A stretch of DNA of 64,000 nt, from assembly GCA_016647705.1 (NCBI GenBank), contig CM028338.1, positions 9,857,240-9,921,239 on the forward strand, read 5' to 3'. The first letter of the stretch is position 1. Every line of letters starts with the position of its first letter. The notes under the pieces were generated by a model. That model was given only the letters and a program-made list of their open reading frames with translations, was not told where the DNA came from and made no database searches. A program made the translations under genes and the position numbers. This document shows, one piece after another, positions 28,555 to 60,355 of the stretch. This DNA comes from Eucommia ulmoides. Lineage: Eukaryota; Streptophyta; Magnoliopsida; Garryales; Eucommiaceae.

Positions 28555-30430
28555 TTTTTGTGGATAAGGCTAAAAGAGGTCTAGCGAAAATGGTTATTTT
28601 GGATGAATTGCCATTTAGATTTGTTGAAAAATAATGGCTTTAAAAAGATTTGTTATGCTTTGCAGCCAAAATTTAAAAATATTCCATGTCGTACTACGGT
28701 AGCTAGAGATATTGTGAAGATATATCATGAGGAAAGAGAGAATTTAAAGAAAGTTTTGCAGGATTGTAGAATATGTTTAACCATGGACACTTGGACTTCC
28801 ATACAGAATTTGAATTATATGTATCTTATGTGTTATGTTATTGATGATGATTGGGTTTTGCATAAAAAAATATTAAGTTTTTGTCTTGTTGAAGATTATA
28901 AGAGGGAAACTATTGGGAAAAAAATTGAATCGTGTTTGCGTAAATGGAATATTAATAGTCACTTCACCTTAACAGTTAATAATGCTAGTTCTAATAGTAC
29001 TACTATTAGATTCTTGCAAAAAGTAATTAAAGACTGGAATTGTACAGTGTTAGGTCATGAATTCTTACACATGCGTTGGTGTGCTCATATTTTCAATCTG
29101 ATTGTATGTGATGGATTGAAAGAACTGCACGAGTCAATAGTTAAGGTTCGGGAAGCGGTTAGATATGTTAAGGGTTCTCCGAATAGATTTCAGACTTTTA
29201 AAAAATGTGTTGATCTGCTTAAAATTGAATTGAAGAGTCTCTTGTGTCTTGATCTTCCAATTCGTTAGAATTCCACATATAAGACGCTAGAGAGTGTTGA
29301 AAATTTTGAAAAAGCTTTTGGCAGATTGGAGATTGAGGATGGAAAATATCGTGATCACTTTTTTTATAACGATATTGGTGAGAGTGGTAGAGGTCCACCA
29401 AGTAGTCTAAACTGGAAAAATATTCGTTGTTTTGTGATGTTTTTGTGGTTATTTTATTTGACTTCAAATTGATTTTCAGGTACTTTGTTTGTTACTTCAA
29501 ATACATTTTTTTTATGAGATAGTAATAATCCATGGAAAAATAAATGAGTTAATTCAAAGTGAAGATCATTTGCTATCGAAAATGGCTTTTAATATGAAAG
29601 CGAAGTTTGATAAAAATTGGGGGGTTGGAGATAAGATAAATATTCTTCTATATGTTGTTGTAGTTTTGGATCCAAGAAAAAAATTATCTTATCTTCAATT
29701 TTGTTTATGCAATATGTATGATGAAGTGTATGCAAATGAGTTAATTAGGAAAGTAAAAGATGTTTTGAATCGGTTATTTGATTATTATGTTTCTTTTGAA
29801 TTGCCAATTGTTGAGAATGTTTCCGGTGGTAGTACTAATGGCGTTAGTAGAATTTCAAAGAACTCGGTCGATTTGGATGTAGATGATCCCCATAGATTAA
29901 TTGCTTCTCGTTTTTAAAATTTTTTAGCGAGGATACAATCGTGGGGGTGTAAAAATGAGGTAGAAAAATATTTGACCGAAAATCTCAAAGGTGCAAGTGA
30001 TGAGAATTTTGACATCTTAAGTTGGTGGAAGAGTAGCAATAGTAAGTTTTGAGTATTGTCTCGATTGGCGAGGGATGTGTTGGCTGTACCGGTTTCAACT
30101 GTTGCTTCGTAATCAACATTTAATACTGGGAGGCATGTGTTTGATCCGTTTCGTAGCTTTTTATCTCCATTGATGGTAAAAACCCTTATTTGTTGTCAAA
30201 ATTGGCTTTAAACCTCTGTGCCGATTTTACTTCGAAAGGGGTGGGATGATATTGAGAAGTTTCAATGAGATTAAGGTAATTTAAATTATATTATTTTTTC
30301 ATTATTATTTTATGTAAATATTTCATAAGACTATAAGAGTAATATTAGACTGATTTGTTCTTTGATTTTTGTAGGGGATTTGAATTTGGAGATATCAAAT
30401 CATTCGCAAGGCTCATCTTTAACTCAGGTT
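28555..30430 (+). pseudogene. hAT transposase core and C-terminal dimerisation region, degenerate
   Basis: The reading resumes with KAKRGLAKMVILDELPFRFV (28567 on), then shifts frame by one base near 28626. The long frame 28603-29268 contains IPCRTTVARDIVKIYHEE, the catalytic-Asp block CLTMDTWTS and RWCAHIFNLIVCDGLKEL. It ends at a TAG where the family has Trp (RWNSTY). The frame carries on to about 29460; a second open stretch (29489-29917) has HGKINELIQSEDHLLSKMAF and LDPRKKLSYLQFCL. The hATC block follows to about 30270 with LTENLKGASDENFDILSWW and SRLARDVLAVPVSTVAS, again with in-frame stops. A final exon near 30375 is inferred from a TAG acceptor. Not functional. Confidence 0.85.
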
Positions 30431-30779
30431 ATTTATTTAATATTTTTTTCTCTTATTTTTATATTATTTTAATTATATTAGGGAATTTCTTGAAGTTCCA
30501 TCTACAATGTGAATGGGGGAAAATCGAAAGACATATTGCCTCATGGGTTTTATTTGTGTTGACTGTTGAATCTGTTGAATTTGAAAATTTTTATTTTTAT
30601 TTTTTATTTTATTTAAGAGTTAGGAATGATTATTATTTTAGATGGGGCTATATTGGTAATTTGGTAGTTACTGTAATATTGGGTTTGGATTTTTTTTAAG
30701 TAGTGATTTTTATTTTTTTGAATGGTTTGTTGAGATATTGTTGAATTTTGATTAATTTTCCCTTGTTGAAAGTTGAAAT

Positions 30780-31040
30780 AGATAATTGGGCTAGTCTAAT
30801 AAATATTTTTACATCCCGAGCCCAACCCAATCACAACCCGGAGCCCAACCTGATCTCAAACTGACACATTTCCCAACCCAATACCCCTTCGAATCTGCCC
30901 GACACTCAACGAACCCGAACAATTTCGGATTACCCATACTGTACGGTCAATAGTGGTTTCATGTTTTCTCACCCAACATACTTTGGGTTGGGTGGCAGGT
31001 CAGCCCAATTTTTGGCATACTCGACCTTTGCAGACCCCTA
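30780..31040 (+). repeat. hAT 3' subterminal repeats and terminal inverted-repeat end
   Basis: Clustered 'cccgagcccaaccc' and 'cccggagcccaacc' motifs and a 'gggttgggtggcagg' inverse copy precede the terminus 'ctttgcagacccCTA'. Repeated short motifs near the ends are where hAT transposases bind. The following 8 bases (tttatagt, 31041-31048) would be one target-duplication copy; the partner was not found. The sequence just after it belongs to the tandem unit described next, so the hAT landed inside that unit. Confidence 0.6.
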
Positions 31041-31471
31041 TTTATAGTGCTGGTGAGTAAGGGTGTTTTAATTGAAGAAAAAATATATTTGCGATATTGA
31101 TTGGCGTTAAGATGTAGTGTCATATATATAATTAGATATACACTACTATTTTAGGAAGCTAATGCATCCAATAATTTTATTTTTTTTTATCGTTTTGGAA
31201 CTTAAATGTGTACTTATATTTTTATTTAGAATTTTATATTAATTAGATTTGATATACAATATATTAGGATTTCGCTTCAATAAATTCAAGTAATTTTAGT
31301 GTATTTTAATGTATTGATACATTCAAATACATTCAAACAATTCTAACCATTGATATCCAATCAAAGGGCCAAATGACACCATCAACACCATCCATGTCCC
31401 ATAATGTACTTTTTAAAAATAAAATTCTAAATTCCTAGGTGGCTTTGTGTTATAAGGTAATTAGCAGTTAG

Positions 31472-33046
31472 CAGATCATCAGAACAAGTTGCAAGATTTT
31501 TGTGAAAAACTAGGACTTTGAATGACCAAGTTATAAGTTTGGATGAGCAAGTTACAAGTTACTTTTACAAGAATTTTTAAAAAAAATTGAGTTAGTATAA
31601 CAAATTGGCAAATTCATTCTAAAGAAGTTGTAAGTTTAAATGACAAGTTACAAGTTGTTTTTACAAGAATGTTGGGACAAATTGCAAATTTGTTCCAAAT
31701 AAATTACATGTTTAAATAAACTTGCAACATCTTTGGAATTACCTAGAAAATTTGTCAAACAAACTGGCAATTTGATATGACAAATTTGCAAATTCATTCT
31801 AAAGAAATTGCAAGTTTGGATGATAAATTATAAGTTACATTTACAAGAATAATGTAACACATTGCTAGTCCAGTCTAAAGAAAATTCTAGTTTAGATGAA
31901 CTTGTAACTTATTTAGAATGAACTCGCAAATTTATCAAATTAAGTTGCCTCAAATTTGTCAAACCAACTTGTAATTTAGTTTGACAAATCTGCAAGTTTG
32001 TTATAAAGAAATTGTAAATTTGGATGACAAGTTACAAGTTAATTTTAAAAGAATGATATAACAGATTGCAAGTCCGTTCTAAAGAAGTTGCAAGTTTAGA
32101 TGAACTTAAAATGTTTCTGAAATGAACTCGCAAATATATCAAATCAAGTTGCCGTAAATTTGTCAAACCAACTTGTAATTCAATTTGACAAATTTACAAG
32201 TTTATTCTGAAGTAACTGAAGAATGATGTGACACATTGCAAGTTCATTCTAAAGAAGTTATAAGATTAGATGAACTTGCAAGTTGTTTAGAATAAACTCG
32301 CAAATTTGTCAATTTAAGTTGCTGCAAATTTGTTAAACCGACTTGCAATTTTGTTTCGCTAATTTGCAAGTTAATTCTAAAGAAGTTTCAATTTGGATGA
32401 TAAGTTAAAAGTTAATTTTACAAGAATGATGTGACACATTTCAATTCCATTCTAAAGAAGTTGCAAGTTTAGATTAACTTGCAACTTGTTTGAATGGACT
32501 CGCAAATTTATCAAACCAAGTTGTCGCATATTTGTCAAACTAACTTACAAATTTGCAAGTTCATTCTGAAGAAATTGCAAGTTTGAATGACAAGTTACAA
32601 GTTACTTTTGTAAAAATGAAATGATATATTGCAAGTTCATTCTATAGAAATTCCTAGTTTAAATAAACTTGCAACTTGTTTTGAATGAACTCACAAGTTC
32701 GTTAAATTAAGTTGCTGCAAATTTGTTAAACCAACTTTCAATTTAGTTTGACAAATTTGTAAGTTCATTCTGAAGAAGTTGCAAGTTTAAATGATATGTT
32801 AAAAGTTAATTTTACATGAATGATGTGATACATTGCAATTCTGTTCTAAAGAAGTTGCAAGTTTAAATAAACTGACAAATTGTTTAAAATGAATTTGCAA
32901 ATTTGTTAAAGTAACTTGCAATTTACTTTGACAAATTTGTAAATTCATTCTAAAGAAATTACAAGTTTGGATGAAAAGTTACAAGTTACTTTTACAAGAA
33001 TGAAGAGACAAATTGCAAGTTCATTCTAAAGAAGTTGCAAGTTTAG
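31472..33046 (+). repeat. Satellite array, unit 1
   Basis: Tandem degenerate units of about 160-210 bp, measured from successive 'tagatgaactt' landmarks (31892, 32099, 32257, 32470 and so on). Each contains the dyad GCAAATTTGTCAAAC ... GTTTGACAAATTTGC around a short loop with CAACTTGCAATTTA, and repeated CAAGTT / AACTTG. No coding potential. Confidence 0.85.
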
Positions 33047-33775
33047 ATGGATCCTAGGACGTTCAAAGAATTCTACCTCCGACCTCCAAACTAGGGACAT
33101 ATAACCACCACCTCAGTCAAAAAAAAATTACGTGGATTCTGACTGAATCAACTCAATATGTTTAATTATTTTAGACACTAAGAATGATAAAAAAAAATTC
33201 TTTTGTTTTGTAATACGTAAGATTAAAATAGTAAATTAATTAATTGCATAATTTTTATTTTTATTTTTCTTTCTTTACTAAAGATAAAATATTATATTTT
33301 AGTTTATAATATATAAAGGTAAAATAGTAATTAAATCAATATACTTTTTTTTGTCTTTCTTTACCACACATACAATATTATATTTATCTTTTTCCCTCCC
33401 TCCTGCCAAACAACCTTAATGAAAATAATGTTTCTTTTACAAAGGATAAATAAAATTTCTTTTTATTTCTCTTTTTCTTTTCCTTTTTCATCATTCCAAA
33501 CAAACGTACGCTAAAAACTAAAAAGACAAACAGTTATACGGACATGAAAAATGGATGTGTACTTTTGAGAAATATATTGTACTTTTACTTTTGTAAGAGG
33601 AGGTGATAAGTGACAAATAATGAGATATTTTTGAATGAGTTCTCGGGGCTATAAGTTTAATTTATTCAACTTACCTCCAAAAAACTCCTCTATCTTTTTT
33701 TCTCAACATTTCGCATATGTTTCTAAGGTATCATTAATTAAGTATCATTAATTAAGCAATTTTGTAGTTATAAAA
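33047..33775 (+). repeat. Unit 1 tail (unique-looking spacer between satellite and HSF fragment)
   Basis: Starts 'cctaggacgttcaaagaat'; contains AT-rich sequence with 'aataatattatattt'-like runs and poly-T; the same order occurs after each array (36976, 39760, 42601). The part just before the HSF fragment has 'tttctaaggtatcattaa'. Nothing coding. Confidence 0.7.
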
Positions 33776-34022
33776 ATGGTGGCTCCTCCTCCTCCAAACC
33801 ATTGAATTGTAATATGGAATCCGAACCATGATTAGTAGATCAGGTTTGGCTACATTCGCAGAGAAACTACATAACGTGGTGGATGACTTGAGAATCGACC
33901 CGATTATATCATGGAGCTCATATTGGAACTGTCACATTATTTGAGATCAAGAAAAATTGTGTGATGATGTTTTCTTCAAATATTTTATATATCGTAATTT
34001 CTCTAACTTTGACCTTAATTTG
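33776..34022 (+). pseudogene. Heat-shock transcription factor DNA-binding-domain fragment, copy A
   Basis: After an ATG (33776, frame MVAPPPPNH then a stop) the segment from 33840 reads SGLATFAEKLHNVVDDLRID, then PIISWSSYWN, and KLCDDVFFKYFIYRNFSNFD. This follows the plant HSF DNA-binding domain (…KTYEMVDD…DxIISWS…NSFIVWD…LLPKYFKHNNFSSF…) from helix 1 to the start of the recognition helix region, where it stops. One in-frame stop replaces Trp before DQEKL. It lacks the recognition helix and all later domains, so it cannot make an HSF. It is a captured fragment carried in the tandem unit. Confidence 0.8.
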
Positions 34023-34178
34023 GCAATGTTGTTTTTTATTTTATTTTATCATTATATTTTCTATTATTATTATTAAATATTTTTTAAAGTTAGTTTTGAT
34101 GCATGAACGTTGAAAAAAAAAATATATTTACGGTGCTAGCGAGTAGGGATATTTTAATTGAAGAAAAAATATATTTGT

Positions 34179-35146
34179 TGTAACGACCCGATTTTTCAAG
34201 ACCACCACTTGATTTCTCCCTTTATTACGAAGAAGTAAATATAAAATATTAATTAATCTAACCCTACTTATTTACTGATCATTATTGTTACAACATTTAG
34301 AAATATTACAAAAGTGACACTATTCACAAAATCACTATTCGTACGTATAATACTATTCACATGTACGGTGTATGGTACTATTTACAATATACTATACACA
34401 GTATTATTTATATTTTCATAATAATTTTTATAACTATACCAATAATAAATATAATTTTATAGAAATAAATCTAAATTTAAATATAATTATTACCGATCCA
34501 GCTCCTTTTATGTGATTCCTACAATAAATACTGTTGGGGGGATGAATTAATGCTCAGTAGAATTTTAACCCATTCCATCTAAGTATCTAATCAAAGCTAA
34601 CAAATAGCACATATGCTAATTGCCACATAGTACATGTTTATAAATAATCCATAGAAATCAACTGTAATAATTAAACAACGACAATAACATGAATCACACA
34701 AGTATAGAGATTAAATACATATATTAAACGAGTTAAAAATTTTACCTTAAATCCACAATTGATAATTAGCAAATTGGCATGATTTTATTTCTTATCTATC
34801 TTCTTCCTATATATTCTTATATTCTCGTTGCAAACCCATATCAACCAACAAAACCATCTCTTCTTTCATTCTCTTAACAAAAACACACATTATATAAGTA
34901 AGGAGTGAGACCACCACTATAAAATCTTCATATTTTCTTTTTCTCATTCCTTCTTTTCTTCTTTCCTTTTTTTTTGTGGGTGATTATTGTCTCTTCCCTT
35001 TCTCTAATTCCCCAACTCTTATCAATGTAATATAAATATATAAAAATTATTAATAATTATTTATATTATTTTTTCTTTCTTTCCACAATGCACGCAACGA
35101 TTTTCATCACACACACATACACACTCATCCACCACCTTCTATCACT

Positions 35147-35182
<36 letters not shown>

Positions 35183-35396
35183 ATTGATCATTTACTATTC
35201 AATATTTTATATAAATTACACCAACACTCCCTTATATTATATAATATTAATATTAAATTTAAAAATTATACCTATAACCCCAAAAGTTATCAAATATATA
35301 TTTACACCATAAATTTTTATAATATACAAAATAACTCAAAAATATTAAACTTATATAAAATAATATTTTTAAAATATAAATTTTCGGGATATTACA
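34179..35396 (+). mobile_element. Ty3/gypsy-type solo LTR (TGTAACGACCC family) in unit 2
   Basis: Begins TGTAACGACCCGATTTTTC and ends TTTTCGGGATATTACA, the paired termini of a very widespread plant gypsy LTR class. It lies exactly where the unit's leader is interrupted: 'aagaaaaaatatatttg' before and 'tttacggtattgggtagc' after correspond to the continuous leader at 31070-31110. Flanking 5-mers tttgt and tttac match in three positions, so the insertion is old. About 1.2 kb, no internal domain. A TA run lies at 35152-35179. Confidence 0.8.
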
Positions 35397-35774
35397 TTTA
35401 CGGTATTGGGTAGCATTAATATGTAGTATCACATATATAATTAGATATATACTAATATTTTAGGAGGGTAATTCATCTGAATTTTTTTTAATCATTTGAG
35501 AACTGAAATATGTACTTATTTTTCTATTTAGAATTTTATATTAATTAGATTTGATATACAATATGTCAGGATTTTACTTCAATAAATTCAAGTGGTTTGG
35601 GTGTATTTGAATGTATTGATATATTCAAATACATTCAAGTAATTCTAATAATTGATATCCAATCAAATGGCCAAATGACACCATCTACACTATCGATGTC
35701 CCATCCATGTACTTTTTGAAAATAAAATTCCAAACTCCTAGGTGGTTTTGTTGTAGAAGGTACCGAGCAATTAG

Positions 35775-36970
35775 TCGGTCATCGGAACAAGTTGCAAGGT
35801 TTTTTGTGAAAAATTACGAGTTTGAATGACCAAGTTATAAGCTTGGATGAGCAAGTTTGAAGTTACTTTTATAAGAATTTTTGAAAAATTGTAAGTTAGT
35901 ATAACAAATTGGCAAATTCATTATAAAGAAATTGCAAGTTTGGATGACAAGTTGCAAGTTACTTTTGCAAAAATGATGAGACATATTGTAAGTTTGTTTT
36001 AAGTAATATTCATGTTTAGATGAACTTACAACTTGTTTGGAATGAACCGACAAATTTGTCAAACCAACTGACAATTTAGTTTGACAAATTTACAAATTCA
36101 TTTTAAAGAAATTGTAATTTTGAATGACAAGCTACAAGTTATATTTACAAGGGTAATGTGACACATTGCAAGCATGTTTTAACGAATTTGCAAGTTTAGA
36201 TGAACTTGCAACTTGTTTGCAATGAACTCACAAATTTGTCAAACCAATATACAATTTAGTTTGACAAATATACAAGTTCATTCTTAAGAAATTGTTAGTT
36301 TGGATGACAAGTTCTAAGTTAATTTTACAAGAATGATGTGATACACTACAGATGATCCATTATAAAGAAGTTGCAAGTTTCGATGAACTTGCAATTTGTT
36401 TGAAATGAACTCGCAAATTTATCCAACCAACTTGCAATTTAGTTTGACAAATTTGTAAGTTCATTTTGAAGAAGTTGCAAATTTAAATGACAAGTTACAA
36501 GTTAATTTTAAAAGAATGAAGTGACATATTCAAGTCCGTTTTAAAGAAGTTGCAAGTTTAGATGAACTTACAATTTATTTGGAATGAACTCACAAATTTA
36601 TCAAACCAAGTAGTCGTAAATTTGTCAAACCAACTTGTAATTTGGTTTGACAAATTTGCAAGTTCATTCTAAAAAAGTTGCAAGTTTGGATGACAAGTTA
36701 AAAATTAATTTTACAAGAATAATGTGGCACATTGCAATTCTGTTTTAAAGAAGTTGCAAATTTAGATTAACTTGCAACTTATTTAAATGAACTCGCAAAT
36801 TAATCAAACCAAGTTACCACATATTTTTGAAACCAACATGCAATTTAGTTTGACAAATTTGTAAATTCATTTCGAAGAAATTGAAAGTTAGGATGAAAAA
36901 GTTACAAGTTACTTTTGCAAGAATGATGAGACAAATTACAAGTTCGTTCTAAATAAATTACAGGTTTAGA
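35775..36970 (+). repeat. Satellite array, unit 2
   Basis: Same satellite as unit 1, starting after 'catcggaacaagttgcaag' and ending before 'cctaggacattcaaagaat'. Shorter than the others. The minus-strand open frame at 35835-36074 is a by-product of the repeat. Confidence 0.8.
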
Positions 36971-37478
36971 TTAATCCTAGGACATTCAAAGAATCTGACC
37001 TCTCACCTTTGAACTCATGACACATAACCACCACCTTAGCAAGAAAAATCTATGTAGACTCTGACCGGATCAACTCGAGGTGCTTACCAATTTTGGACAC
37101 TAACAATGATAATTTTTTTATTTTGTTTTGTAATATGTAAGGTTAAAATAGTAAATTAATTAAGTGCATATTTTTTTTTCTTTGCTAAAGATAAAAAATT
37201 ATATTTTATTTTATAATATGTAAGAGTAAAATTGTTAAATGAGTATATTTGTTTTTCCTTTCTTTACTACACATATAATATTATATTTTTCTCTTTTTCC
37301 ATCCCTCTAACCAAACAACCTTAAGGATAATAATTTTTTTTCTACAAAAGATAAATAAAATTTCTTTTCATTTTTCTTTTCCGTCTTTCCACCCAAACGT
37401 ACCCTAAAAACTAAAAAGACAAAGACAAACTATTACATAGGACGAACATGAAAAATGAATGTGAATTTTTTAGGAATA
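36971..37478 (+). repeat. Unit 2 tail, ends without HSF fragment
   Basis: Follows the unit 1 tail ('cctaggacattcaaag', poly-T, 'acccaaacgtaccctaaaaac', 'gaacatgaaaaatgaatgtg') but after about 37470 it jumps straight to the next leader ('ttaggatgctaatgcaccc'). The interval holding the HSF fragment in the other units is missing. Confidence 0.7.
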
Positions 37479-37799
37479 TATATTAGGATGCTAATGCACC
37501 CAACATTTTATTTATCTTTTTGGAACTGAAATGTGTACTTGTTTTTCTATTTAAAATTTAATATTAGTTTGATTTTATATATAATATGTTAGGATTTTGC
37601 TTCAATAAATTCAAAGTGGTTTGGGTGTATTTGAATGTATTGATACATTCCAATACATTCAAGCAATCCTTATAATTGATATCCAATCAGAAAACCAAAT
37701 GACACCATTTGCACCATCCATGTCCCATCTATTTACTTTTTGAAAGCAAAATTTCACATTCCTAGGTAGTTTTGTGGTAGAAGGTAGCTAGCAGTTAAC

Positions 37800-39757
37800 A
37801 GATCATCAGAACAAGTTGCAAGATTTTTATGAAACATTATGAGTTTGAATGACCAAGTTACAAATTTGGATGAACAATTTACAAGTTACATTTATAAGAA
37901 ATTTTAAAAAATTTGCAAGTTTGTTCTAAATAATTTTCATGTTTAGATGAACGAGCAACTTATTTGAAATGAACTCGCAAATTTTTCAAACCAACTTGCA
38001 ATTTAATTTAGGGCAAAATATATTTTAAACCCTCTAACTATTGATATATTTCTAAGTAATCCTTCTAAATTTATGCGTTTCATTTTAAACCCTCCACGTA
38101 TGAACACAATTTTAAAAAGTCATTCTGTTAGATTTTTCATCAAATCTAATAGACTTGAGGAGGAAAATAGTCTTTTACTATTTTTTTATTTTTCTTATTT
38201 TCTTTGTTTTTTTTTTTTTCTTCTTCACTTCTGTCTCTTCCTCTCCCTCATTCCTTCCCTCTCCTTCTCCCCGCCAGCACCCTCTGTTATGGGGTTGAGG
38301 ACCCCTTGTTAAGGGGTGGTTCCACCCCCGAAACAGAGGGTCCTCACCATTATAACATGGGGTGAACTACCCTTGTAATAGGGGGTGGTTTCCGGTGGGG
38401 AATGGGAGAGGGAAGGAGAAAGGAGGGAAGAGAGAGAGAAGTGAAGAAGAAAAAGAAAAAAGAAAAAAAAAAAAAGCAAAGAAAAAAATAGTAAAAAACC
38501 ATTTTGCCCCCTCAAGTTTATTAGATTTGATGGAAGATCTAACATAAATGCCTTTTAAAACCGTGTTCATATGTGGAAGGTTTAAAATGAAACACATAAA
38601 TTTAAGAGAACTACTTAGAAATGTATCAATAGTTAAAACGTTTAAAATGTATTTTGTGCTTTAATTTAACGAATTTACAAGTTCATTCCAAAGATGTTGT
38701 AAATTTAGATAACAAGTTACACGTTACTTTTACAAGAATAATGTGACACATTACAAGTACGTTCTAAAGAAGTTGCAAATTTAGATGAACTTACAACTTG
38801 TTTGAAATGAACTCGCAAATTTGTCAAACCAAGTTACAATTTAGTTTGACAAATTTGGAAACTCATTCTGATGAAGTTGCAGGTTTGGATAACAAGCTAC
38901 AAGTTAATTTTACAAGAATGATGTGACACACTATAAGTCCATTATAAAAAAGTTATAAGTTTAGATGAAGTTGCAATTTGTTTGGAATGAACTTGCAAAT
39001 TTATCAAATCAAATTACCGTAAATTTGTTGAACCAACTTACAATTTAGTTTAACAAATTTGCAAGTTCATTATGAAGAAGTTCCAAATTTGGATAACAAG
39101 TTATAAGTTAATTTTAAATGAATAATGTGAAACATTGCAAGTCCGTTCTAAAGAAATTGCAAGTTTAGATGAACTTGCAACTTGTTTGAAATGAACTCAC
39201 AAATTTATCAACTAAAATTGTTGGAAATTTATCAAATCAATTTGCAATTTAGTTTGACAAATTTGCAAGTTCATTTTGAAAAAATTACAAGTTTGAATAA
39301 CAAGTTACAAGTTAGTTTTGTAAGAATGATGTGACACATTTCAAGTTAATTCTAAAGAAGTTGCAAATTTAGATGAACTTGCAACTTGTTTAAAATGAAC
39401 TCACAAATTTGTCAAATCAAGTTGCCGAAAATTAGTCCAACCATCTTGCAATTTAGTTTAACAAATTTTCAAATTCATTCTGAAGAAGTTGCAAGTTTGG
39501 ATGACAAGTTAAAAGTTAATTCTACAAGAATAATATGGCACATTGCAAGTTCGTTCCAAAGAATTAGTAATTTTATATCAACTTGCAACTTGTTTGAAAT
39601 TAACTCGCAAATTTGTCAAACCAACTTACAATTTAGTTTGACAAATTTGCAAGTTCATTCAAAAAAAGTTCTGAGTTTGGATGAAAAGTTACAAGCTACT
39701 TTTACAATAATGATGAGATAAATTACAAATTTGTTATAAAGAAATTGCAAGTTTAGA
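37800..39757 (+). repeat. Satellite array, unit 3, interrupted by a MITE
   Basis: Same satellite, split by the MULE-type MITE at 38011-38659. The array resumes exactly across the duplication: 'cttgcaa' before and 'acgaatttacaagttcatt' after rebuild the normal unit spacing. Confidence 0.8.
38011..38659. mobile_element. Mutator-type MITE with long inverted repeats and exact 9-bp duplication
   Basis: Left end GGGCAAAATATATTTTAAAC and right end, reversed, GCACAAAATACATTTTAAAC start inverted repeats of roughly 200-250 bp on each side ('tattgatatatttctaagta', 'tcattttaaacc', 'tctaatagacttga' recur reversed). Flanks are TTTAATTTA at 38002-38010 and TTTAATTTA at 38660-38668. The 9-bp length is typical of Mutator-like transposases. 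The middle (38281-38400) is GC-rich with further short foldbacks around 'accccttgttaaggggtgg'. Open frames on both strands are mirror by-products. No transposase. Confidence 0.92.
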
Positions 39758-40583
39758 TGGACCCTAGGACGTTCAAAGAATCCGACCTCCAAACTTAAGA
39801 CCAATAACCACCACCTTAGAGATAAAAATCTACATGGACTCTGATCAGATCAACTCGAGGTGTTTACCAATTTTAGACACCAACAATAGTAAATTTTTTA
39901 TTTTGTTCTGGAATATGTAAGGGTGAAATAGTAAATTAATCAAGTTCATAATTTTTCTTTTTATTTTTCATTCTTTACTAAAGATAAAATATTTTATTTT
40001 ATTTTATAATATATAAGAGTAAAATAGTAAATTAAATGAGTATATTTTTTTTCAATTTATTTTTCTTTCTACTACACATATAATATTATATATATGTATA
40101 TATATTTTTTCTATCCTTCTAACCAAATAACCTTAAAAAAAAAAAAAAAAAAAAAATAAATCGTCTATAAAGGATAAAAAAAAAAAAAAAAAAAAAAAAA
40201 TCTTTTCATTTCACTTTTATTTTTCTTTTCCATCCTTTCAACCAAACTTATCTTAAAAACTGAAAAGAAAAACTACTTCATAGGACGAACATGAAAAATG
40301 GATGTGTACTTTGGAGGAATCTAATGTACTTTTACTTTTATAAGTGGGGGTGATAAGTTACAAATAGGGAGATATTATTGAATGAGTTGTGGGGGCTATG
40401 AGTGTAATTTATCCAACTTTACCTCCATAAAACTCCTATCTCTCTCTCTCTACATTTCACGCATGCTCTTTCTCTCTCTACATTTCATGTATGTTTCTAA
40501 GGTATCATTAATGAAGCAACTTGTGGTTATGAAAATTGTGGCTCTTCTTCCTAACCATTGAATTGGAATATAGAATCCAAACC
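39758..40583 (+). repeat. Unit 3 tail
   Basis: Follows the same order as in unit 1: 'cctaggacgttcaaagaat', T/A-rich stretch with two long A runs at 40136-40156 and 40168-40200, 'taccttaaaaac'-like step, then CT-rich sequence at 40438-40490 and 'ggtatcattaatgaagcaac' just before the HSF fragment. No coding potential. Confidence 0.7.
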
Positions 40584-40781
40584 ATGATTAGCGGGTCAGG
40601 TTTGCCTACATTCACGGAAAACCTATATGAGATGGTGGATGACTTGAGAATTGACCAAATTATATCATGGAACCCATCTCGGAACAGTCTCATTATTTGG
40701 GATCAAGAAAAATTGTGTTATGATGTTTTCCCCAAATATTTCTTGCATCGTAATTTCTCCAGTTTTGACTTTAATTTATAA
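40584..40781 (+). pseudogene. Heat-shock transcription factor DNA-binding-domain fragment, copy B (open)
   Basis: From the ATG at 40584 a frame of 65 codons stays open: MISGSGLPTFTENLYEMVDD, then LRIDQIISWNPSRNSLIIWD, then QEKLCYDVFPKYFLHRNFSS and FDFNL before TAA. This is the best preserved of the three copies and matches helix 1, the first beta strands and helix 2 of a plant class-A-like HSF domain. The sequence is lost where VRQLNTYGFRK would follow, so the DNA-reading helix is absent. There is no promoter evidence. It might still be transcribed as a short open frame, but a working HSF is excluded. Confidence 0.82.
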
Positions 40782-40803
40782 ATATTATTGTTTTATCATT
40801 TTT

Positions 40804-40805
<2 letters not shown>

Positions 40806-40851
<46 letters not shown>

Positions 40852-40880
40852 ATGTATATATATGTATGTATATGTATATA
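40806..40880. repeat. (TA)n / TATG microsatellite between units 3 and 4
   Basis: Pure TA to about 40842, then TATGTATGTATATGTATA-like variants. It replaces the 'ggtgctagcgagtaggg' joint seen between units 1 and 2. Confidence 0.9.
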
Positions 40881-41249
40881 TTAATTAGATATATACTAGT
40901 ATTTTAGGACGCTAATTCATCTAACATTTTGTTTATTTTTTTATTTTTTATTTTTTAGCTTTTTGGAATTGAAATGTGTACTTATTTTCTTTATTTAGAA
41001 TTTTATATTGGTTTGATTTGATATATAATATATTAGGATTTTACTTTAATAAATTCAAGTGGTTCAGGTGTATTTGAAGGTATTGATATATTCAAATATA
41101 TTCAAACAATCTTATCCATTGATATTCAATCATTGAGCCAAATGCCACCATCTACACCATCCTTGTCCCACCCATGTACTTTTTGAAAATAAAATTCCAA
41201 ATTTCTCTATGATTTTATGGTAGAAGATATCTAGTAGTTAGCAGATCAT

Positions 41250-42598
41250 CAGAACAAGTTGCAATGAATTTTGTGAAAAATTACGAGTTTGAATGATTAA
41301 GTTACAAGTCACTTTTACAAGACTTTTTGAAAAATTGTAACTTAGTTTAATAAATTTGCAAGTTCACTCTAAAAAGCTTTCAAGTTTGAAAGACAATTTA
41401 CAAGTTACTTTTACAAAAATGATGAGACAAATTACAAGTTCGTTCTAAATAACTTGAATGTTTAGATGAACTTGCAATTTTTTTTGGAATAAACTCGCAA
41501 ATTTGTCAAACCAACTTGCTATTTAGTTTGACAAATTTGTAAGTTCATTCTGAAGAAGTGGCACGTTTGGATGCCAAGTTATAAGTTACATTTACAAGAA
41601 TGATGTGACACATTGTAAGTCCGTTATAAAGAAGTTGCTAGTTTAGATACATTTGCAACTTGTTCGGAATGAACTCACAAATTTGTCAAATCAACTTGCA
41701 ATTTAATTTGACAAATTTACAAGTTCATTCTGATGAAGTTGCAAGTTTGGATGACAAATTACAAGTTAATTTTACAAAAATGATGTGACACATTGCAAGT
41801 CTATTCTAAAGAAATTGCAAGTTTAGATGAACTTGCAATATGTTTGGAACAAACTCACAAATTTATCAAATCAAGTTACCGCAAATTTGTCAAACCAACT
41901 TGCAATTTGGTTTGACAAATTTTTAAGTTCATTTTGAAGAAGTTATAGATTTGGATGACAAGTTACAAGTTAATTTTAAAAGAATGATGTGACACATTGC
42001 AAGTATATTCTAAAGAAATTACAACTTGTTTGGAATGAACTTGCAAATGTATCAAATGAAGTTGCCGCAAATTTGTCAAACCAACTTACAATTTAGTTTG
42101 ACAAATTTGCAAGTTCATTCTAAAGATGTTGCAAATTTGGATTACAAGTTACAAGTTACTTTTGCAAGAATGATGTGATAGATTGCAAGTTCATTTTAAA
42201 GAAGTTGCAAATTTAGATGAACTTGCAACTTTTAAAATGAACTCACAAATTTGTCAAACTAAGTTGTTGCAAATTTGTCAAACCAACCTGCAATTCAGTT
42301 TGAAAAATTTACAAGTTTATTTTGAAGAAGTTGTAAGTTTAGATAACAAGTTAAAATTTTTTACAAGAATGATGTGACAAAATGCAAGTCCATTCTAAAG
42401 AAGTTGCAAATTTAGATGAACTTGTAATTTATTTGGGATGAACTCGTAAATTTATCAAACCGAATTGAAATTTAATTTGAAAAATTTACAAGTTCATTCT
42501 AAAGAAGTTGCAAGTTTGGATGAAAAGTCACGAATTACTTTTACAAGAATAATGAAACAAATTATAAGTCAGTTCTAAAAAAGTTGCAAGTTTAGATA
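41250..42598 (+). repeat. Satellite array, unit 4
   Basis: Same satellite as in units 1-3, from 'gatcatcagaacaagttgc' to just before 'caggacattcaaaaagtccg'. Dyad motifs are clearest at 41504-41540, 41880-41925 and 42070-42115. Confidence 0.82.
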
Positions 42599-43328
42599 GA
42601 CCCCAGGACATTCAAAAAGTCCGACTTCCAACCTTCGAACTCAGGACATATAACCATCACTTCAGCAAGAAAAATCTACGTGAACTATGATCAAATCAAC
42701 TTGAGGTGTTTACCAATTTTAGATACCAAGAATGGTAAATTTTTTATTTTATTTTATAATATGTAAGGGTAAAATAGTGAATTAATTAAGTGTATAATTT
42801 TTTCTTTTTCTTTTTCTTTCTTTACTAAAGATAAAATATTATATTTAATTTTATAATATGTAAGGATAAAATAGTAAATTAAATGATTATATTTTTTTTC
42901 CTTTTACTTTTCTTTCTTTGCTGCTCATATAATATTATATTTTTCTCTTTTTTCATCCCTCCAACCAAACAACCTTAAGCAAAATGATTTTTTTCTACAA
43001 AAGATGAAAAATAATTTCTTTTTATTTCTCTTTTTCTTTTCCTTTTCCATCCTTCCAACCAAATATACCCTAAAAATTGAGAAGACAAATTGCTACATAG
43101 GATGAACATAAAAAATGGATGTGTACATTGGGAGGAATATAGTGTACTTTTACTTTTGAAGAAGGGGTGATAAGTGACATATAGGGAGATATTATTGAAT
43201 AAGTTATAGGGGCTATAAGTGTAATTTACCCAACTTAATAAAACTCATCTCTCTCTCTCTCTCTCTCTCTCTCTACATTTCATACATGTGTCTCTCTCAC
43301 CATTGAATTGGAATATGGAATCTAAAAC
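42599..43328 (+). repeat. Unit 4 tail, with CT microsatellite
   Basis: Follows the unit tail order and ends with a CT run at 43247-43274 and 'caccattgaattggaatatgg', which in copies A and B also precedes the HSF fragment. Confidence 0.7.
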
Positions 43329-43526
43329 ATGATTAGCGGGTCAAGTTTGACTATATTCACAAAGAAACTGTATGAGATAATAGATGACTCGAGAATTGAC
43401 CCAATTATATTATGGAGCCCATCTTGTAACAGTCTCATTATTTGGGATCAATAAAAATTGTGTTATGATGTTTTCTCCAAATATTTCACGCATCACAATT
43501 TTTCCAGTTTTGACCTTAATTTATAA
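43329..43526 (+). pseudogene. Heat-shock transcription factor DNA-binding-domain fragment, copy C
   Basis: From the ATG at 43329: MISGSSLTIFTKKLYEIIDD, SRIDPIILWSPSCNSLIIWD, then a TAA where copy B has Glu (DQEK), then KLCYDVFSKYFTHHNFSSFD. Same extent as copies A and B, with the C-terminal cut at the same place (FDLNL). The shared endpoint in all three copies shows that the fragment was cut once, before the unit multiplied. A T38 run and ATT repeats follow at 43533-43590. Confidence 0.8.
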
Positions 43527-43529
43527 ATG

Positions 43530-43532
<3 letters not shown>

Positions 43533-43572
<40 letters not shown>

Positions 43573-43590
43573 TATTATTATTATTATATA
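43533..43590. repeat. Poly-T and ATT repeat closing the tandem block
   Basis: A run of about 38 T residues followed by ATT repeats. Beyond it none of the unit landmarks is seen. Confidence 0.9.
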
Positions 43591-43599
43591 CAATTTGAG

Positions 43600-44350
43600 A
43601 ATTTTTCCTCTTTCTCGTAGATATAAGAGCCTCTTATATGCTAGAACATTGGCTTGCCTTTTTTTTTTCTATTTATTAGAATGATGTTTATTATTTTTAT
43701 CTTTTATTCTGCATCGGCAATTTCTCACACTAAATCAAAAAATAAGGTTAAAACCAGAATAAAACACCAACATCACTACCATACTCAAATCTCGCGTACA
43801 TTTTCAGAAATCAAGGAAAATATATTCAATTAAACACCAGAACGTCTATCAATGTCAAACACAGTATGAACAGAACTATAGAGCAAAAAGTCAACTGCAA
43901 AGACATAACCCTATTTTAGAAAAGCTAAGACCATTTGAGCTTTAACTATTCGAAAGTCCAAATACAAATATACCACAATCTTGAAGCAAAACCCAAGTCT
44001 ACACGCCCTAAATTAAAACTTGGAAGTTAATGTAGAAACTCTCAAAAGAAACCTTGAGATATAAGGATTTCCCTACACTTTATATAGCTTAGGATCAGAT
44101 AATACAAGCGATGTGGGGTTCAACAGTTATAAAAGACACACCAGGAGGGAAGAGGGAGTCAAAGTCATCAACAAGATTAGACACACAATGCTTATACCCA
44201 ATGATAAATGCAAGAAAATAGACTCTAACCCACAAAGACTTGAGGATTACAAAGGCAATACCTAAACACCCTAGGTGTTGAAATATGCTGCCAGACACAA
44301 CTCTCAATATTACAACTTCTTACTGAGGAAGAGGAGGTCGCAAACCCGAA
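43600..44350. other. Intergenic stretch, nothing recognised
   Basis: AT-rich single-copy-looking DNA. Short frames (for example on the minus strand at 44095-44307) show no family signature. Its right edge is the target site of the copia element E4, and the same locus continues at 56156. Confidence 0.6.
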
Positions 44351-44355
44351 GAGAA

Positions 44356-44719
44356 TGTAATTGATCTGTTTCAAGAAATGGTAATATTAAATATGGTCCA
44401 TTCAATGCCTTTAAGATTAAAAAATGTTTCAACCGTTACTCTGATGAAATGGTAACTCAAAATCCATTTGCTTTGATGAGGAGCTTCACTATATAAAGGG
44501 GTTTTGATCCCTCGGCTCAAACACACAATAAACAACAAATACACCATCTAATCTGAGTGTGTTAAGAGCTTCGAAGTGTCAAAACAGTGAGGAAATAGAG
44601 AGAGAAAAATAAGGTACAATGGTAGGGGTATGTTCAAATTTTGGGTTTTCTTTAGTTATTGATATAATTATCTCATTGTTTAGTTTCTGTTTGAATATTG
44701 GATCATTAAGTTTCCTATA
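44356..44719 (+). repeat. E4 5' LTR
   Basis: Contains a TATA box (TATATAAAGG, about 44490) followed by a transcribed-leader-like stretch, as in an LTR promoter. Ends directly before the primer-binding site. Confidence 0.9.
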
Positions 44720-46385
44720 GTTGGTATCAGAGCCAAGATATTTCTACCTTTGCCAGTTTTGTTTTGGTCGTGATGAAATTTTATAAAATAAGGTTATTAA
44801 ACATACAGAACTAGGGTTTGTACGGTGGTATAAACAATAATCAAACTAGTTTATCACCTAAAATCCATCGCGAAGGCGATCAATGACGAGAAATAGATAC
44901 CATAACATATGGTGAAGAACAACGCAGCGAAGAGGACAGCTTTGCCGATCGGGAGATTCAGAACCCACTTGTGGTTGCTCTGTCCTTGTCTCCGACGGAA
45001 TCGATTGCTGCCGAGGCTCTGTATCGCCATAAGCAGTTGTTTTAACTTCTCCCATTTATCTCTCTTTCTAGTCTCTCTCTGTCATTGGAAATTAGGTCTT
45101 GGTAAAGACAAATAACTTGTTTGATAAAGTGGATGAATTGAATTGAAGAAGGAAATGAAATCTGCCTAAAGATAAATGAATGGGGTATTCTTTTCCAAAT
45201 AGTCGACATGTGTCAAAAATAATTATTTTGCACTATTTAATTAATAATATATATGGAAAAAAAAAAAGTTTCATTGCCTTGTCTTTTATATCACGTGAAT
45301 TACAATTTTGAGGAAATGAAATTTTGAAAAAGGCAAATCATTGAAATGGTTATACAATTTACAGAAATACCATCAACTATATAAATTAAGAAATTTTCAT
45401 GTTTGCTATCTTAATTACTGAAATGTTATTACTGCTATGATATTGAACTCAATTTTGTAAATTGTTCATTTTTATGCATAGTCAAAATTTTGTTTTTTAT
45501 ACACAAAATTAAGACTTGTTTTGCAACAAAAAAAAAAAATTTAATTATTAGGCATCTATTTGATTAATGTTTTTTTTCTTCTTTTTGCATACGTTATTTA
45601 ATAATAATAATAATAATAACAATAATAATAATATATGTAATATAAGGATGAATTAAATTATCTGTAGAACTTAAATTTATTTTACTCATATTATGCATGA
45701 ATATTATGTTATCAATTTATGCTTCTAGAATGAGTTCTATTTGTGCATAAAATTAAATTAATTGTAAAATATTATGTATAATTATGCAATTTATGTTTTA
45801 TTATGAGAATTATATTTACATATGATAACATATTATTTGGTTTTAGATATTGTTGGATTATGTAAAATTAAGGTTATTCTCATAAAACTTAATTTTATAA
45901 ATTTTTTGAAATGTCTAATGATTCATATTATATTCATTAATTAAAAGTTAGTCACAACATCTTTAATTAATTAATATATATATATTAAGTTATAATAAGG
46001 ATCACATAGAATTAGACATAATATTGTGATTAATTATATTTAATATAATAAATTTTATTCTACGAGAACTTTTATTATATTTATATAATTAATTAGGATA
46101 AAATATTATATTATTTTCATAATTACCCACATAAATTATGAATCGGTACATAATTTTATAGTTCTATCATAAAGTTAAAATTCAGGATAGAAAATTAAAT
46201 TATTTTTATTATGTACCTATAAAATATGAAATTAAGTACATAATTTGATAATTCTATCACTGCGATCATTTGAATCTACTTATATTAAAAAATATGTTAT
46301 GAGATTTATTTTTGCGTGTTTTACATTGGTACAACATACAATTTAGACTATTGGGTCTCATTTTTAATAAACAATTTAGATTTAT
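44720..46385 (+). mobile_element. E4 leader with primer-binding site; long AT-rich untranslated stretch
   Basis: TTGGTATCAGAGCC at the start pairs with initiator tRNA-Met. A more GC-rich patch at 44870-45060 has weak coding look on both strands but no family signature. 45130-46300 is very AT-rich with an (ATA)n stretch at 45600-45635. It is unusually long for a copia leader, so a further unrecognised insertion is possible. Confidence 0.6.
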
Positions 46386-47350
46386 GTAGCTTTTCAATAT
46401 GCCAATTTTTCTGATATCTAATGTGATATTCCTGAACTTAGTGGTGATAATTATAAGATATGGGAGATGATTCTTCTCCATCTAGGGTGTGTCGATATTG
46501 ATTATGTTATTAAGAAGGAAAAACCACATGCAATCACTGATTTCAGCACTCCAGCTGAGGTCGCACTATATGAGCGATGAGAGCGATCCAATCGGCTCAG
46601 CGTAATGTTTATTAAGACCAAAATAACTGTTGGAATACGTGGTTCTGTTAACCAGCATAATAATGTCAAAGACTTGCTACACGCTATTGACGAACAGTTC
46701 GTTACTTCAGAAAAGACACTAGCTGGCACCCTAATAATAAAGTTTTCATCTTTGAGACTTACAAGCATGAAAGGTGTGCGCAAGCACATAATACAAATGC
46801 GAGACATTGCAGCTCAACTTAAAAAACTTGAGGTTGATATATCAGAATCGTTCCTAGTGAACTACATTCTGAACACCTTTCCACAAGAGTGTGGGCCTTT
46901 TAAGATCTCATACAACACACATAAAGACAAATAGTCAATCAACGAATTAATGACCGTGTGTGTTCAAGAAGAAGAGAGGCTTATGATGGAACACGGTGGG
47001 AGTGCATTGTTGGTAATCAACTGCGGGAGGAATAAAGCGACAAAACTTATGCCAAACATAAAGCTAATCAGAAGGGGAAAGGTAAAATACCACCTCAAGC
47101 TGATATCAAGAAAGAAGCAAAGTGTTTCCTCTGTAAAAAAAAAGGGACACATGAAGAAGGAATGTGATAAATTCAAACAGTGGCTTGAGAATAAAGGTAA
47201 ACCAACTTCGTTTGTTTGTTATGAATCTAATATGGCTAATGTTAATGTTAACACCTGGTGGATTGATTCTGGATATACAATCCATGTTGCAAACTCTTTG
47301 CAGGGTATGCAAAACCTAAGGAAGCTAGTGGGAATTGAGCAAAGCATCTA
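46386..47350 (+). mobile_element. E4 gag region
   Basis: Frames show the SGDNYKIWEM-type start (about 46440-46475), MKGVRKHIIQMRDIAAQLKK (about 46768) and a zinc knuckle of CxxCKKKGHMKKEC form near 47130-47165, then a protease-like WWIDSGYTIHVANS (about 47255). These are typical copia gag and protease landmarks. Broken. Confidence 0.8.
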
Positions 47351-47487
47351 ATCAGACAACAAGATGAGCTCACATATGGAAGCAATTTGAACTTTTGTTT
47401 TAACTTTAAGTAGTGGTTTTCTTTTAAAATTGAAAAGGACCTTTGATGTACTAAGTTTCTCACGAAACTTAATTTCTATTTCAAGAC

Positions 47488-49507
47488 TTGTACCGCTTGG
47501 ATATTCCTTTAATTTTTAAAACACATCATTCAGTTTATTATATAAATTTGATTGTGTTGGGAATGGTATTTTGTCTGATGGTCTTTATCGCATTTTCTTA
47601 CAAAACGATACTACTTATAGGTCAATGCATGTTCACGCTGGCACTAAAAGGTGTAAAATTAACGAGGACTCCTCCATGTTTTGGCACCGAAGATTAGGAC
47701 ATAACTCCATAGAAAGAATTAAGAGATTAGTGAATGACGGGGTACTTAATACTTTGGATTACACTGATTTTGAGACTTGTGTAAACTGGATTAAGGGAAA
47801 GCAAACTAACAAGTCTAAGAAAGGTGCTAATAGGAGTTCGGACATATCAGAGATCATTCCACTGATATACGTTGTCCAGATATGGATGCACATGGTCAGA
47901 AATACTTCACCTCTTTTATTGATGATTACTCACGATATATGTATACCTATTTGCTTCATGACAAAAATGAAGAATTGGATGCCTTCAAAATATTTAAGGC
48001 CGAAGTTGAAAACCAATGCGGTAAGCAAATCCATATTGTGAGATCAGATAGAGGTGAAAAATATTATGGTAGATACACGGAGAATGGACAAACACCTGGT
48101 CCATTTGCCAAATTTCTTCAACAACATGGGATCGTTGCCCAATATACCATGCCTGGTTCTCTGGACCAGAATGGTGTTGCAGAAAGAAGAAACCGGACAT
48201 TACTAGACATGGTGCGAAGTATGCTTAGAAACTCTAATCTTCCTAAATCCTTGTGAGCTGAAGCACTAAAGACGGTTGTGTATATATTAAACCGAGTTCT
48301 AACCAAGGCTGTTCCGAAGACACCATTTGAATTATGGAAAGGTTGAAAATCGAGTTTGAGACATATGCACGTTTGGGGATGTCTGTCTGAGGTGAGGATA
48401 TATAACCCACAAGAGAAGAAACTAGACCTGAGGACCATTAGTGGGTATTTTATTGGATATGCTAAAAGATCCAAAGGTTATAGATTTTATTGTCCTTCTC
48501 ACACTACTAGAATTGTGGAATCAAGAAATGCTAGGTTTCTTGAGAATGACTTGATCAGTGGGAGCGATTGGTTTAAGAACATAGTTCATGTACATGATCA
48601 GACAAAATTTCAACCTTCCACATCAAGTGACAGATTGGTTATAGTTCATAGCACCCTTCCAGTTCAAACTGGTGTTGAGCAATCAATCATTGAGGTTCCA
48701 TAAGCTGCTGACAATCTTCTAAGAGATTAAGCAATTCAGGAATTTCCACAAGCTTCTGAACAACAAGTTGAACCACAAGTTCCTCAGGAAAATATTGGTA
48801 CAACATTGAGAATATCTACTAGAGATAAGAGATCAACAATTTTTAATAATTATATTGTGTATCTTCAAGAATCTGACTATAATATTGGAGCAAAAAATGA
48901 TCCTAAAACCTTTTCACAAGCCATGAGTTGCAAAGAGTCAGATTTATGGTATGAGGCCATGAAGGATTAGATGAATTCCATGAAAAGTAATGGAATATGG
49001 GATCTTGTAAAGTTGCCTAATGGGGGGCGAAGGCCATTGGTTGTAAATGGATTTTTAAGATCAAGAAAGACTCATTAGGCAATATTGAGAGATACAAGAT
49101 AAGACTAGTTGCCAAGGGATTTACTCAAAAAGAATGAACTAATTATACGGAGACTTTTTCTCCTGTATCTAAGAAAGTTTCTCTTCGTATCATGTTAGCT
49201 TTCGTTGCTCATTTTGACCTTGAGTTGCAACAAATGGATGTAAAAACGGTATTTCTTAATGGAGATCTAGAGGAAGAGATTTATATGAAACAACCTGAAG
49301 GTTTCTCATTTAGTGGTGGTAAACAATTGGTTTATAAGCTTAAGGAATATATATACGGTCTAAAACAAGCTTCCCGTCAGTGGTATTTTAAATATCATGG
49401 AGTAATTTCTTCTTTCGGATTTGTTGAAAATCCCATAGCTTAATATATATACCAAAAGGTTAGTAGGAGTAAGATTTGTTTTCTTATTTTATATGCGAAT
49501 GATATTT
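47488..49507 (+). mobile_element. E4 pol, first part: pre-integrase, integrase, start of reverse transcriptase
   Basis: FWHRRLGHNSIERIKRLV (about 47675-47730) is the pre-integrase block. Integrase core: SFIDDYSRYMYTYLLHDKNE, IHIVRSDRGEKYYG, DQNGVAERRNRTLLDMVRSM (about 47900-48225). Then 'LRHMHVWGCLSEVRIYNPQE' and ISGYFIGYAKRSKGYRFYC. Reverse transcriptase begins near 49030 and includes QQMDVKTVFLNGDLEEEIYM. It is interrupted at 49507 by E5. Broken. Confidence 0.85.
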
Positions 49508-49950
49508 TGTTGGGAAATAAAGAGTAATTTACCTATAACCATATTAACGAGAATACAAAATAAGAGCGGAATAATAACACACACGATTGATAACAGAGTT
49601 CGGCCAATTATGCCTACGTCTCTGGAGTTGCTGCAGATCTTTCTTCAAAATAAGAGAAATTACAAAGTGTTTACAAGTACTCACAAACTCACAAATCACA
49701 ACCCAATTATACCCAAGAATTTTCTCACAAAAATTCTCACACAAGTTTTTCTTTTTAAGCTTTCTCTCAAACCTTTCTAACTTGGTTTCTTTTTTTGATT
49801 AATCGATTACAAAAGCATGGAGATTAATGGGGTTTATATAGGCTTCAAAATGAAATATGGGGTTGGTGGAATTAGGCACCTCGGTTTGACAATTGGAGTT
49901 AGGTACCTCCATTTGACAATTGGAGTTAGGCACCCACTAATTAACCAACA
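49508..49950 (-). repeat. E5 3' LTR
   Basis: 443 bp, similar to the other LTR with roughly one difference per ten bases by eye and a few small indels, including a 'caaactcacaaatcacaac' stretch that is shorter in the partner. Contains a short repeat 'ggtacctccatttgacaatt' / 'aggcacctcggtttgac'. Confidence 0.9.
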
Positions 49951-52900: not shown

Positions 52901-53260
52901 CGGATGTCTCCTTTTCCGACGATCTTCAAGGTTTCATCATCGACTGGATGAACCTTCCCGAAATCACTACTGACATAATTCTCCATGATTTCTTTTCATG
53001 GGGTAGTGTGGAATGATACCCTTGAGTCCAAAATGCATGATTCAATCAGACTGTTGATGCTTAGAATCATAGCATCACCTATTTCCTCGGTTACATTGGC
53101 AGATTCCTGTGCGCCGATATTTTTTTTCGGTGCTCGGCAATCCCTCTTGAGTTACCCTTCTTGCCTCAATTTCTTCCGGATTTAGATTTACCCCGTCTAT
53201 ATTTCGATCTGCTACAATTTGAGTTTCTTTTTGAAGTTTTCCCTCTAGATTCTGTGTGCA
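49951..53260 (-). mobile_element. E5 pol: integrase, reverse transcriptase, RNase H (broken)
   Basis: Minus-strand landmarks: pre-integrase GVRHISGLKRNLISVGQLD (about 52800-52870); integrase 'VQRLRSDNGGEYKNSGF' and TPQQNGVTQCMNRSL (about 52130-52300); 'NLSHLKVFGCISYVH' (about 51950); reverse transcriptase start VKANFLYSDLEEEIYMRQPE (about 51190-51240), then LLLYVNEMLVVGSD (about 50960-51000) and MKDLGTVKQILGMRIKRD; connection and RNase H 'VPYASTIGSPMYAMVC' and GYVDANLAKNIDVRRSTIGY (50339-50692). Confidence 0.85.
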
Positions 53261-53264
53261 AGGC

Positions 53265-53864: not shown

Positions 53865-54059
53865 TCGAATCTGGCTTCTTTTGGATCATTTCTAACTATT
53901 CCAACAAACCACCGTGTGTCAGAATATTGTTGTCGAAGAACTTGGCCGACAAAATTTCACTGTTCAAGAAGTCACTATTCACAAAATTCACTATTCACAT
54001 GAATAGTAACCTCGAGAAAAATACCGTCAAAAATCACAACCAGAGCTCCTGATACCAGT

Positions 54060-54483: not shown

Positions 54484-54488
54484 TATTT

Positions 54489-56150: not shown

Positions 56151-56155
56151 GAGAA

Positions 56156-60252: not shown

Positions 60253-60355
60253 TCTTAGACGCAATCAACACTGAAAGAAAACGGATCTTGATGTCACCAG
60301 AAGATTGCTCACTCAATCTGAACAGTCGACAACGCTGAATGATGGAATCTGGCAT
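60245..60355 (-). promoter_or_regulatory. Upstream ORF overlapping the ARF start codon
   Basis: The only ATG seen between the presumed transcription start and the ARF start opens at 60355 and runs 36 codons (MPDSIIQRCRLFRLSEQSSG...IASKNE) to a TGA at 60245-60247, overlapping the ARF ATG (60250-60252) in another frame. Overlapping uORFs usually lower translation of the main frame. It applies only if transcription starts upstream of 60355, which the TATA box suggests. Confidence 0.6.

Follow-up and report, generated by a model that had tools for sequence, protein, structure and literature searches.

How a piece of a transcription-factor gene comes to lie inside tandemly repeated, satellite-bearing DNA, and whether it retains any role there, is the question raised by a locus in Eucommia ulmoides, which was analysed in a stretch of 64,000 nucleotides (GenBank assembly GCA_016647705.1, contig CM028338.1, positions 9,857,240 to 9,921,239 of the forward strand; hereafter the window, to which all positions refer). 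From 31041 to about 43590 this window holds four head-to-tail units, each consisting of a leader, a satellite array and a tail in that order, and units 1, 3 and 4 are closed by a fragment of a heat shock factor (HSF) DNA-binding domain (copies A, B and C, respectively). The array is probably an old, low-copy tandem duplication carrying a truncated HSF pseudogene fragment, which has been decaying without visible constraint.

Organisation of the array

The order of the units, which had been proposed in an earlier note made from the sequence of this stretch, is borne out by gapped self-BLAST and by separate alignments of the leaders and of the tails. Among the self-BLAST pairs of which one end or both fall outside 31500-42600, the segment 31084-32667 pairs with 35393-36974 (79%), 31123-32872 with 40875-42601 (76%) and 31147-31584 with 37479-37911 (84%). 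The leaders are alignable across all four units, as are the tails, and over these columns the units are 80-87% identical. The satellite portion is marked by 28 anchors (8, 6, 7 and 7 in units 1 to 4), with a monomer spacing of 170-204 bp that is mostly either 180 or 204. As the earlier note had also observed, unit 2 lacks the HSF part, its tail passing straight into the leader of unit 3 near 37480; this is best read as the loss, by one deletion, of the HSF end of unit 2 together with the first part of the unit 3 leader. The extent originally given for the array, 31041..43600, holds in so far as the units are real, with the qualification that three later insertions, namely what looks like the end of a hAT element, a piece resembling a solo long terminal repeat (LTR) and a miniature inverted-repeat transposable element (MITE), had not been separated from them.

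The kilobase size of the unit and its head-to-tail order are those of a macrosatellite, as the array had been called. The human D4Z4 macrosatellite consists of a kilobase tandem unit with coding-derived sequence, and the array shares this feature with D4Z4-type macrosatellites in layout only; it differs from them in that four units are present in the window, that these are 80-87% identical and that they hold no intact gene. At this level of identity between four units, the array is not homogenised in the window, and four such units in one place constitute a low-copy tandem duplication, for which the term macrosatellite is unproven. Nor is there anything to say that the HSF piece caused the amplification, as the description of the array as ‘seeded’ by it had implied.

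Identity and shared end of the HSF fragment

The assignment of the fragment to the HSF family, made at first from the pattern of the domain, was confirmed by a profile search in which all three copies score above the gathering cut-off of 22 bits for Pfam HSF_DNA-bind (PF00447; 31.4, 49.7 and 46.4 bits for A, B and C, with A and C entered with X at their stops; E values in Table 1). In each copy the match extends over the first half of the profile only (positions 1 to 52 or 53 of 100). Copy B also resembles solved HSF domains (17 distinct sequences among the matches listed, best E 5.1e-11), and is 60% identical across 55 residues to an HSF-domain protein of Tetracentron sinense. The latter protein came from a padded consensus query that reached only 3 candidates, and a search with copy B alone, to which only proteins of about 36-113 residues were admitted, gave no candidate; because of this length limit, and of the return of 3 candidates despite the existence of thousands of HSF-type proteins, little can be learned from either search about the nearest donor. 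Among viral contigs, no relatives of a satellite motif or of copy B were found.

Copy A begins with the ATG at 33828 rather than at 33840, the start given previously. Upstream of it, within 33776-33827, a further ATG opens a short frame, MVAPPPPNH, which is followed by a stop and might represent the decayed N-terminus of the donor HSF.

The three copies end at the same point. When each was compared with a panel made up of the best 120 of 3937 relatives of the Tetracentron sinense protein, the similarity ended at FSSF (FSNF in copy A) in 118 of 120 comparisons and reached the end of the fragment in 2. Of the earlier claim of a common endpoint at FDxNL, the common endpoint stands; the last four residues (DLNL or DFNL), however, although common to the copies, are not HSF-like. 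The HSFs of the panel go on after FSSF with VRQLNTY or a close variant (117 of the 120 with the motif searched). In the copies, the 21 bases that follow FSSF fit V/I/M-R-Q-L-N-T/I/M-Y no better than 13-26% of 11212 background positions, and so reveal no decayed HSF coding sequence past this point. A query representing the second half of the domain, written from general knowledge, found no counterpart in the window (best E 1.6), and a complete HSF domain with helix 3 and wing, such as a functional HSF would possess, is absent from the copies. If VRQL (or RQL) is taken to belong to helix 3, as is assumed here, the shared end falls inside that helix, before the intron, and not at an exon boundary. 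The conserved intron of HSF genes is placed between helix 3 and the wing in excerpts of PMC12582567.

Joint duplication of fragment and satellite

The several parts of the unit have diverged to a similar degree. Kimura two-parameter (K2P) distances are 0.148-0.205 for the leaders and 0.188-0.233 for the tails (six pairs each), 0.125-0.197 for the stretch between the tail and the HSF part, and 0.153-0.250 for the HSF part together with about 35 columns before the ATG (three pairs each). The satellite monomers agree with this in that those at the edges are related by position: one clade unites the first monomers of every unit (FastTree support 0.986) and a second one the last (0.996), while the middle monomers intermix across units. 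The windows used for this tree take in some leader or tail bases (and that of U3.2 about 37 bases of the MITE), as a consequence of which the support for the edge clades is inflated. With trimmed windows, comprising 27 of the 28 monomers (U3.1 was left out because its 5' half is leader), the clade of first monomers is retained at 0.797 by FastTree and 84.4/86 by IQ-TREE. The branching order of the four units is weak (bootstrap 66).

Because the parts have diverged alike and the edge monomers tend to group by position, the fragment and the array are seen to have been duplicated as one block, in agreement with the earlier proposal, also favoured by the common endpoint and common derived residues, that one HSF fragment was multiplied with the satellite. 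The plain reading is that the whole unit, including its array, was duplicated, and that middle monomers were then gained and lost independently in each unit. Plant substitution rates lie between 6.5e-9 and 1.3e-8 per site per year; with these general rates, a divergence near 0.2 would correspond, as a rough figure, to roughly 8 to 15 million years.

The satellite monomers of 31592-42595 contain, by eye, many short dyads, e.g. GCAAATTTGTCAAAC...GTTTGACAAATTTGC, and one 204-base monomer, when folded as DNA, beats all 200 shuffles (z -3.59). Covariation support for these hairpins was not found in 19 of the 28 monomers that were aligned (covariation term +0.37; two-sided change in 3 of 19 pairs).

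Decay of the fragment

The copies match the plant HSF DNA-binding domain over the half profile noted above, and differ from it in that they deviate at 7 of 28 near-invariant residues, that two of them contain stops and that the second half is not found in the window. The 28 columns were defined by a conservation of at least 95% among 117 of the 120 panel proteins (the other three lacked the motif needed for lining up); all three copies deviate at 7 of them and their majority ancestor at 8, compared with deviations at 0 (100 proteins), 1 (15) or 2 (2) columns among the 117 HSFs themselves. The direction of this difference is clear despite the bias of the panel considered below, and indicates that constraint on the fragment had relaxed before its multiplication.

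The changes that followed are those of neutral DNA. Between copies, 35 amino-acid changes are seen versus a mean of 35.1 in 1000 neutral simulations, in which the private changes were placed at random according to the spectrum of those copies. Stops occur in A and C, and a stop in two of three copies is also what the simulations yielded most often (477 of 1000). A functional HSF would be expected to show purifying selection on its frame, and none was detected. Judged from its sequence, the fragment appears to have no visible function and displays no sign of constraint.

Origin of the array

A sequence of events can be proposed that would account for these features. In one plant HSF gene, the part of the first coding exon that runs from the start of the domain to FSSF would have been captured by a DNA-level rearrangement, and would have landed beside the leader and the 180/204-bp satellite array. 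A DNA-level event is favoured because only the 5' part of the gene is kept, whereas a typical retrocopy is truncated at that end and usually preserves the 3' part. The resulting block of about 2.5-3.5 kb would then have given rise to at least four head-to-tail units, unequal crossing-over being the most likely mechanism, with no active gene presumably lying behind the array. The copies would subsequently have decayed, with stops arising in A and C, the HSF end of unit 2 being lost and middle monomers gained or lost, and the array would have received insertions of a MITE, of an LTR-like piece and, probably, of a hAT element. Understood in this way, the locus provides a small, clean case in which tandem duplication may carry a short satellite array along with a fragment of a gene, both then decaying. 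In the literature surveyed, the titles and abstract openings that were listed contain no description of an HSF fragment inside a satellite unit.

Several observations weigh against this account. The single capture is argued from the shared endpoint and the shared derived residues, and from these alone. In the trimmed monomer set, the clade of last monomers is not recovered by FastTree and reaches only 75.6/72 in IQ-TREE. The dN/dS ratios between copies are below 1 (0.47, 0.43 and 0.72), values as low as these being found, respectively, in 205, 168 and 546 of 1000 neutral runs. At the eighth column at which the ancestor deviates, copy B keeps the HSF residue. Finally, since the panel consists of the best 120 of 3937 relatives of one protein, the conserved columns are biased to one kind of HSF.

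A different origin, which is considered unlikely and nevertheless fares best among the alternatives, is that the unit is itself a non-autonomous transposon of the Helitron, Pack-MULE or Pack-CACTA type, which had acquired the HSF piece and then inserted repeatedly at adjacent positions. Captures by such elements also place host exon fragments in repeated DNA, and closely spaced tandem insertions of Pack-CACTA elements have been proposed, according to excerpts of PMC13317346; transposon debris is, moreover, present inside the array. On the other hand, comparison of the unit starts with the unit ends gave no inverted match of more than 13 bases (BLAST E up to 0.1; unit 2 represented by the short first piece of its leader only), so that the units, in contrast to such elements, have no terminal inverted repeats that could be found, in a comparison that did not cover Helitron ends or target repeats where units join. 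The six unit pieces have only short matches, of 18 to 65 bases and mostly of low complexity, in the rest of the window. With no longer inverted match and only such short matches elsewhere in the window, a carrier transposon is not shown. Plant satellites may also arise as tandem repeats within retrotransposons, as reported in excerpts of PMC7004042, and these share with the present locus the confinement of a short array inside a larger repeated unit; by eye, and with no dedicated search, neither the leader nor the tail was seen to contain any part of a retrotransposon.

Somewhat less probable again is the suggestion that the array descends from a true HSF locus, of which it would be the decayed 5' end. 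The promoter, the satellite-bearing DNA upstream and the first exon would have undergone duplication at their original site, the remainder of the gene having later been lost or lying outside the window. This would explain why an HSF gene is represented by its 5' part only, and in all three HSF-bearing units the tail that precedes the ATG is indeed colinear with it, gaps aside. However, the last unit would then be expected to continue into the intron and the second exon, and the search for the second half described above found none in the window; the ancestor of the copies was, furthermore, already degenerate. The common end also precedes the conserved intron, at the position given for it in excerpts of PMC12582567. 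Tandem duplication of a block that already contained a truncated fragment remains the preferred explanation.

The earlier note had suggested that copy B, through its 65 open codons, might yield a peptide, or the array small RNAs, touching HSF genes. Such a role, analogous to that of the short HSFs produced by intron retention, is very improbable. Copy B does retain its open frame, but its nine private changes comprise 7 nonsynonymous and 2 synonymous ones, its rate of change is below that of its flanks without the slow-down being significant (Fisher p 0.11 and 0.20), and a frame of this kind stays open after nine neutral changes with a probability of about 0.59. The satellites show no enrichment of HSF binding sites (paired sites: 2 versus 4.08 expected; triple sites: none). 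The copies end at FSSF, before VRQL, and are therefore without the RQL of helix 3 on the assignment assumed here. Short HSFs (S-HsfA2, S-HsfA4c and S-HsfB1) likewise contain only the N-terminal part of the domain and, with this truncated domain, act as regulators in Arabidopsis; they differ in arising by intron retention in a live gene and in retaining helix 3, as far as excerpts of PMC12582567 and, for the retention of helix 3, also PMC9861123 describe them. The open frame of copy B carries a warning, in that it could be annotated as an HSF-domain gene even though its changes fit neutral DNA. The wider notion that satellite-linked HSF fragments, at many loci, give rise to heat-regulated RNA silencing or decoying the donor HSF, with satellite copy number tuning the heat response, is the most far-fetched of all and is given almost no credence.

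Later insertions and surroundings

The coordinates of the units and of the elements inserted among them are collected in Table 1.

Table 1. Features of the array and of the insertions in and beside it (positions in the window).
Feature	Position	Strand	Evidence or remark
Decayed hAT element	28585-31040	+	hAT-like RNase-H PF14372 in 29462-29914, E 6.5e-22
Unit 1 leader, left end cut, apparently by hAT element end	31041..31591	+	Leader alignment
Unit 1 satellite, 8 anchors spaced 170-204 bp	31592..33050	+	Anchor scan
Unit 1 tail	33051..33827	+	Tail alignment
HSF fragment copy A; stop replaces Trp of B and C	33828..34022	+	PF00447 E 2.9e-7, profile 1-53 of 100; frame
Unit 2 leader, first part, left limit approximate	34100..34179	+	GTGCTRGYGAG at 31047 and 34133
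Probable solo-LTR-like insertion in unit 2 leader, ends TGTAACGACCC...GGGATATTACA	34180..35395	+	Type judged from features
Unit 2 leader, continued	35396..35890	+	Leader alignment
Unit 2 satellite, 6 anchors	35891..36970	+	Anchor scan
Unit 2 tail, truncated, without HSF part	36971..37480	+	Tail alignment
Unit 3 leader without 5' end	37481..37911	+	84% to 31147-31584
Unit 3 satellite, MITE-interrupted; 7 anchors for unit, first (37890) at leader edge	37912..39755	+	Anchor scan
MITE-like insertion in unit 3 satellite	38011..38659	+	Inverted repeat arms 206 nt, 80%; 9-base target repeat TTTAATTTA
Unit 3 tail	39756..40583	+	Tail alignment
HSF fragment copy B; 65 open codons, then stop	40584..40781	+	PF00447 E 5.8e-13, profile 1-52 of 100
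Unit 4 leader; AT microsatellite before it	40882..41330	+	Leader alignment
Unit 4 satellite, 7 anchors	41331..42595	+	Anchor scan
Unit 4 tail	42596..43328	+	Tail alignment
HSF fragment copy C; one internal stop (TAA)	43329..43526	+	PF00447 E 6e-12, profile 1-53 of 100

At the left margin of the array, the sequence TAGGGGTCTGCAAAGG, which is presumably a hAT end, lies on the minus strand at 31025-31040 and abuts the first leader, so that the leader of unit 1 seems to be truncated by the right end of the hAT element, whose left end was not found in the window. With this hAT-like end placed at 31040, at the very start of the first leader, the array is likely to have extended further to the left originally. 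Within the array, the insertion in the unit 2 leader is about 1.2 kb long and begins and ends with TG...CA, with no clean target repeat, and the MITE in the unit 3 satellite measures about 650 bp and has long terminal inverted repeats.

To the right of the array, the segments 44351-44720 and 55754-56151 are direct repeats of about 400 bp that are 85% identical, and the reading frames between them look retroelement-like by eye; the region 44351-56151 is probably an old LTR retrotransposon with further insertions. Elsewhere in the window, a large palindrome occupies 2351-3905 (87% identical to its own reverse complement across 1566 aligned columns), and two features mark the DNA as that of a plant: an auxin response factor gene, in which B3 and ARF_AD domains are recognised, lies on the minus strand at 57755-60264, and the plant small nucleolar RNA snoR71 is found at 20012-20118, with a score of 41.3 bits versus a gathering score of 40.

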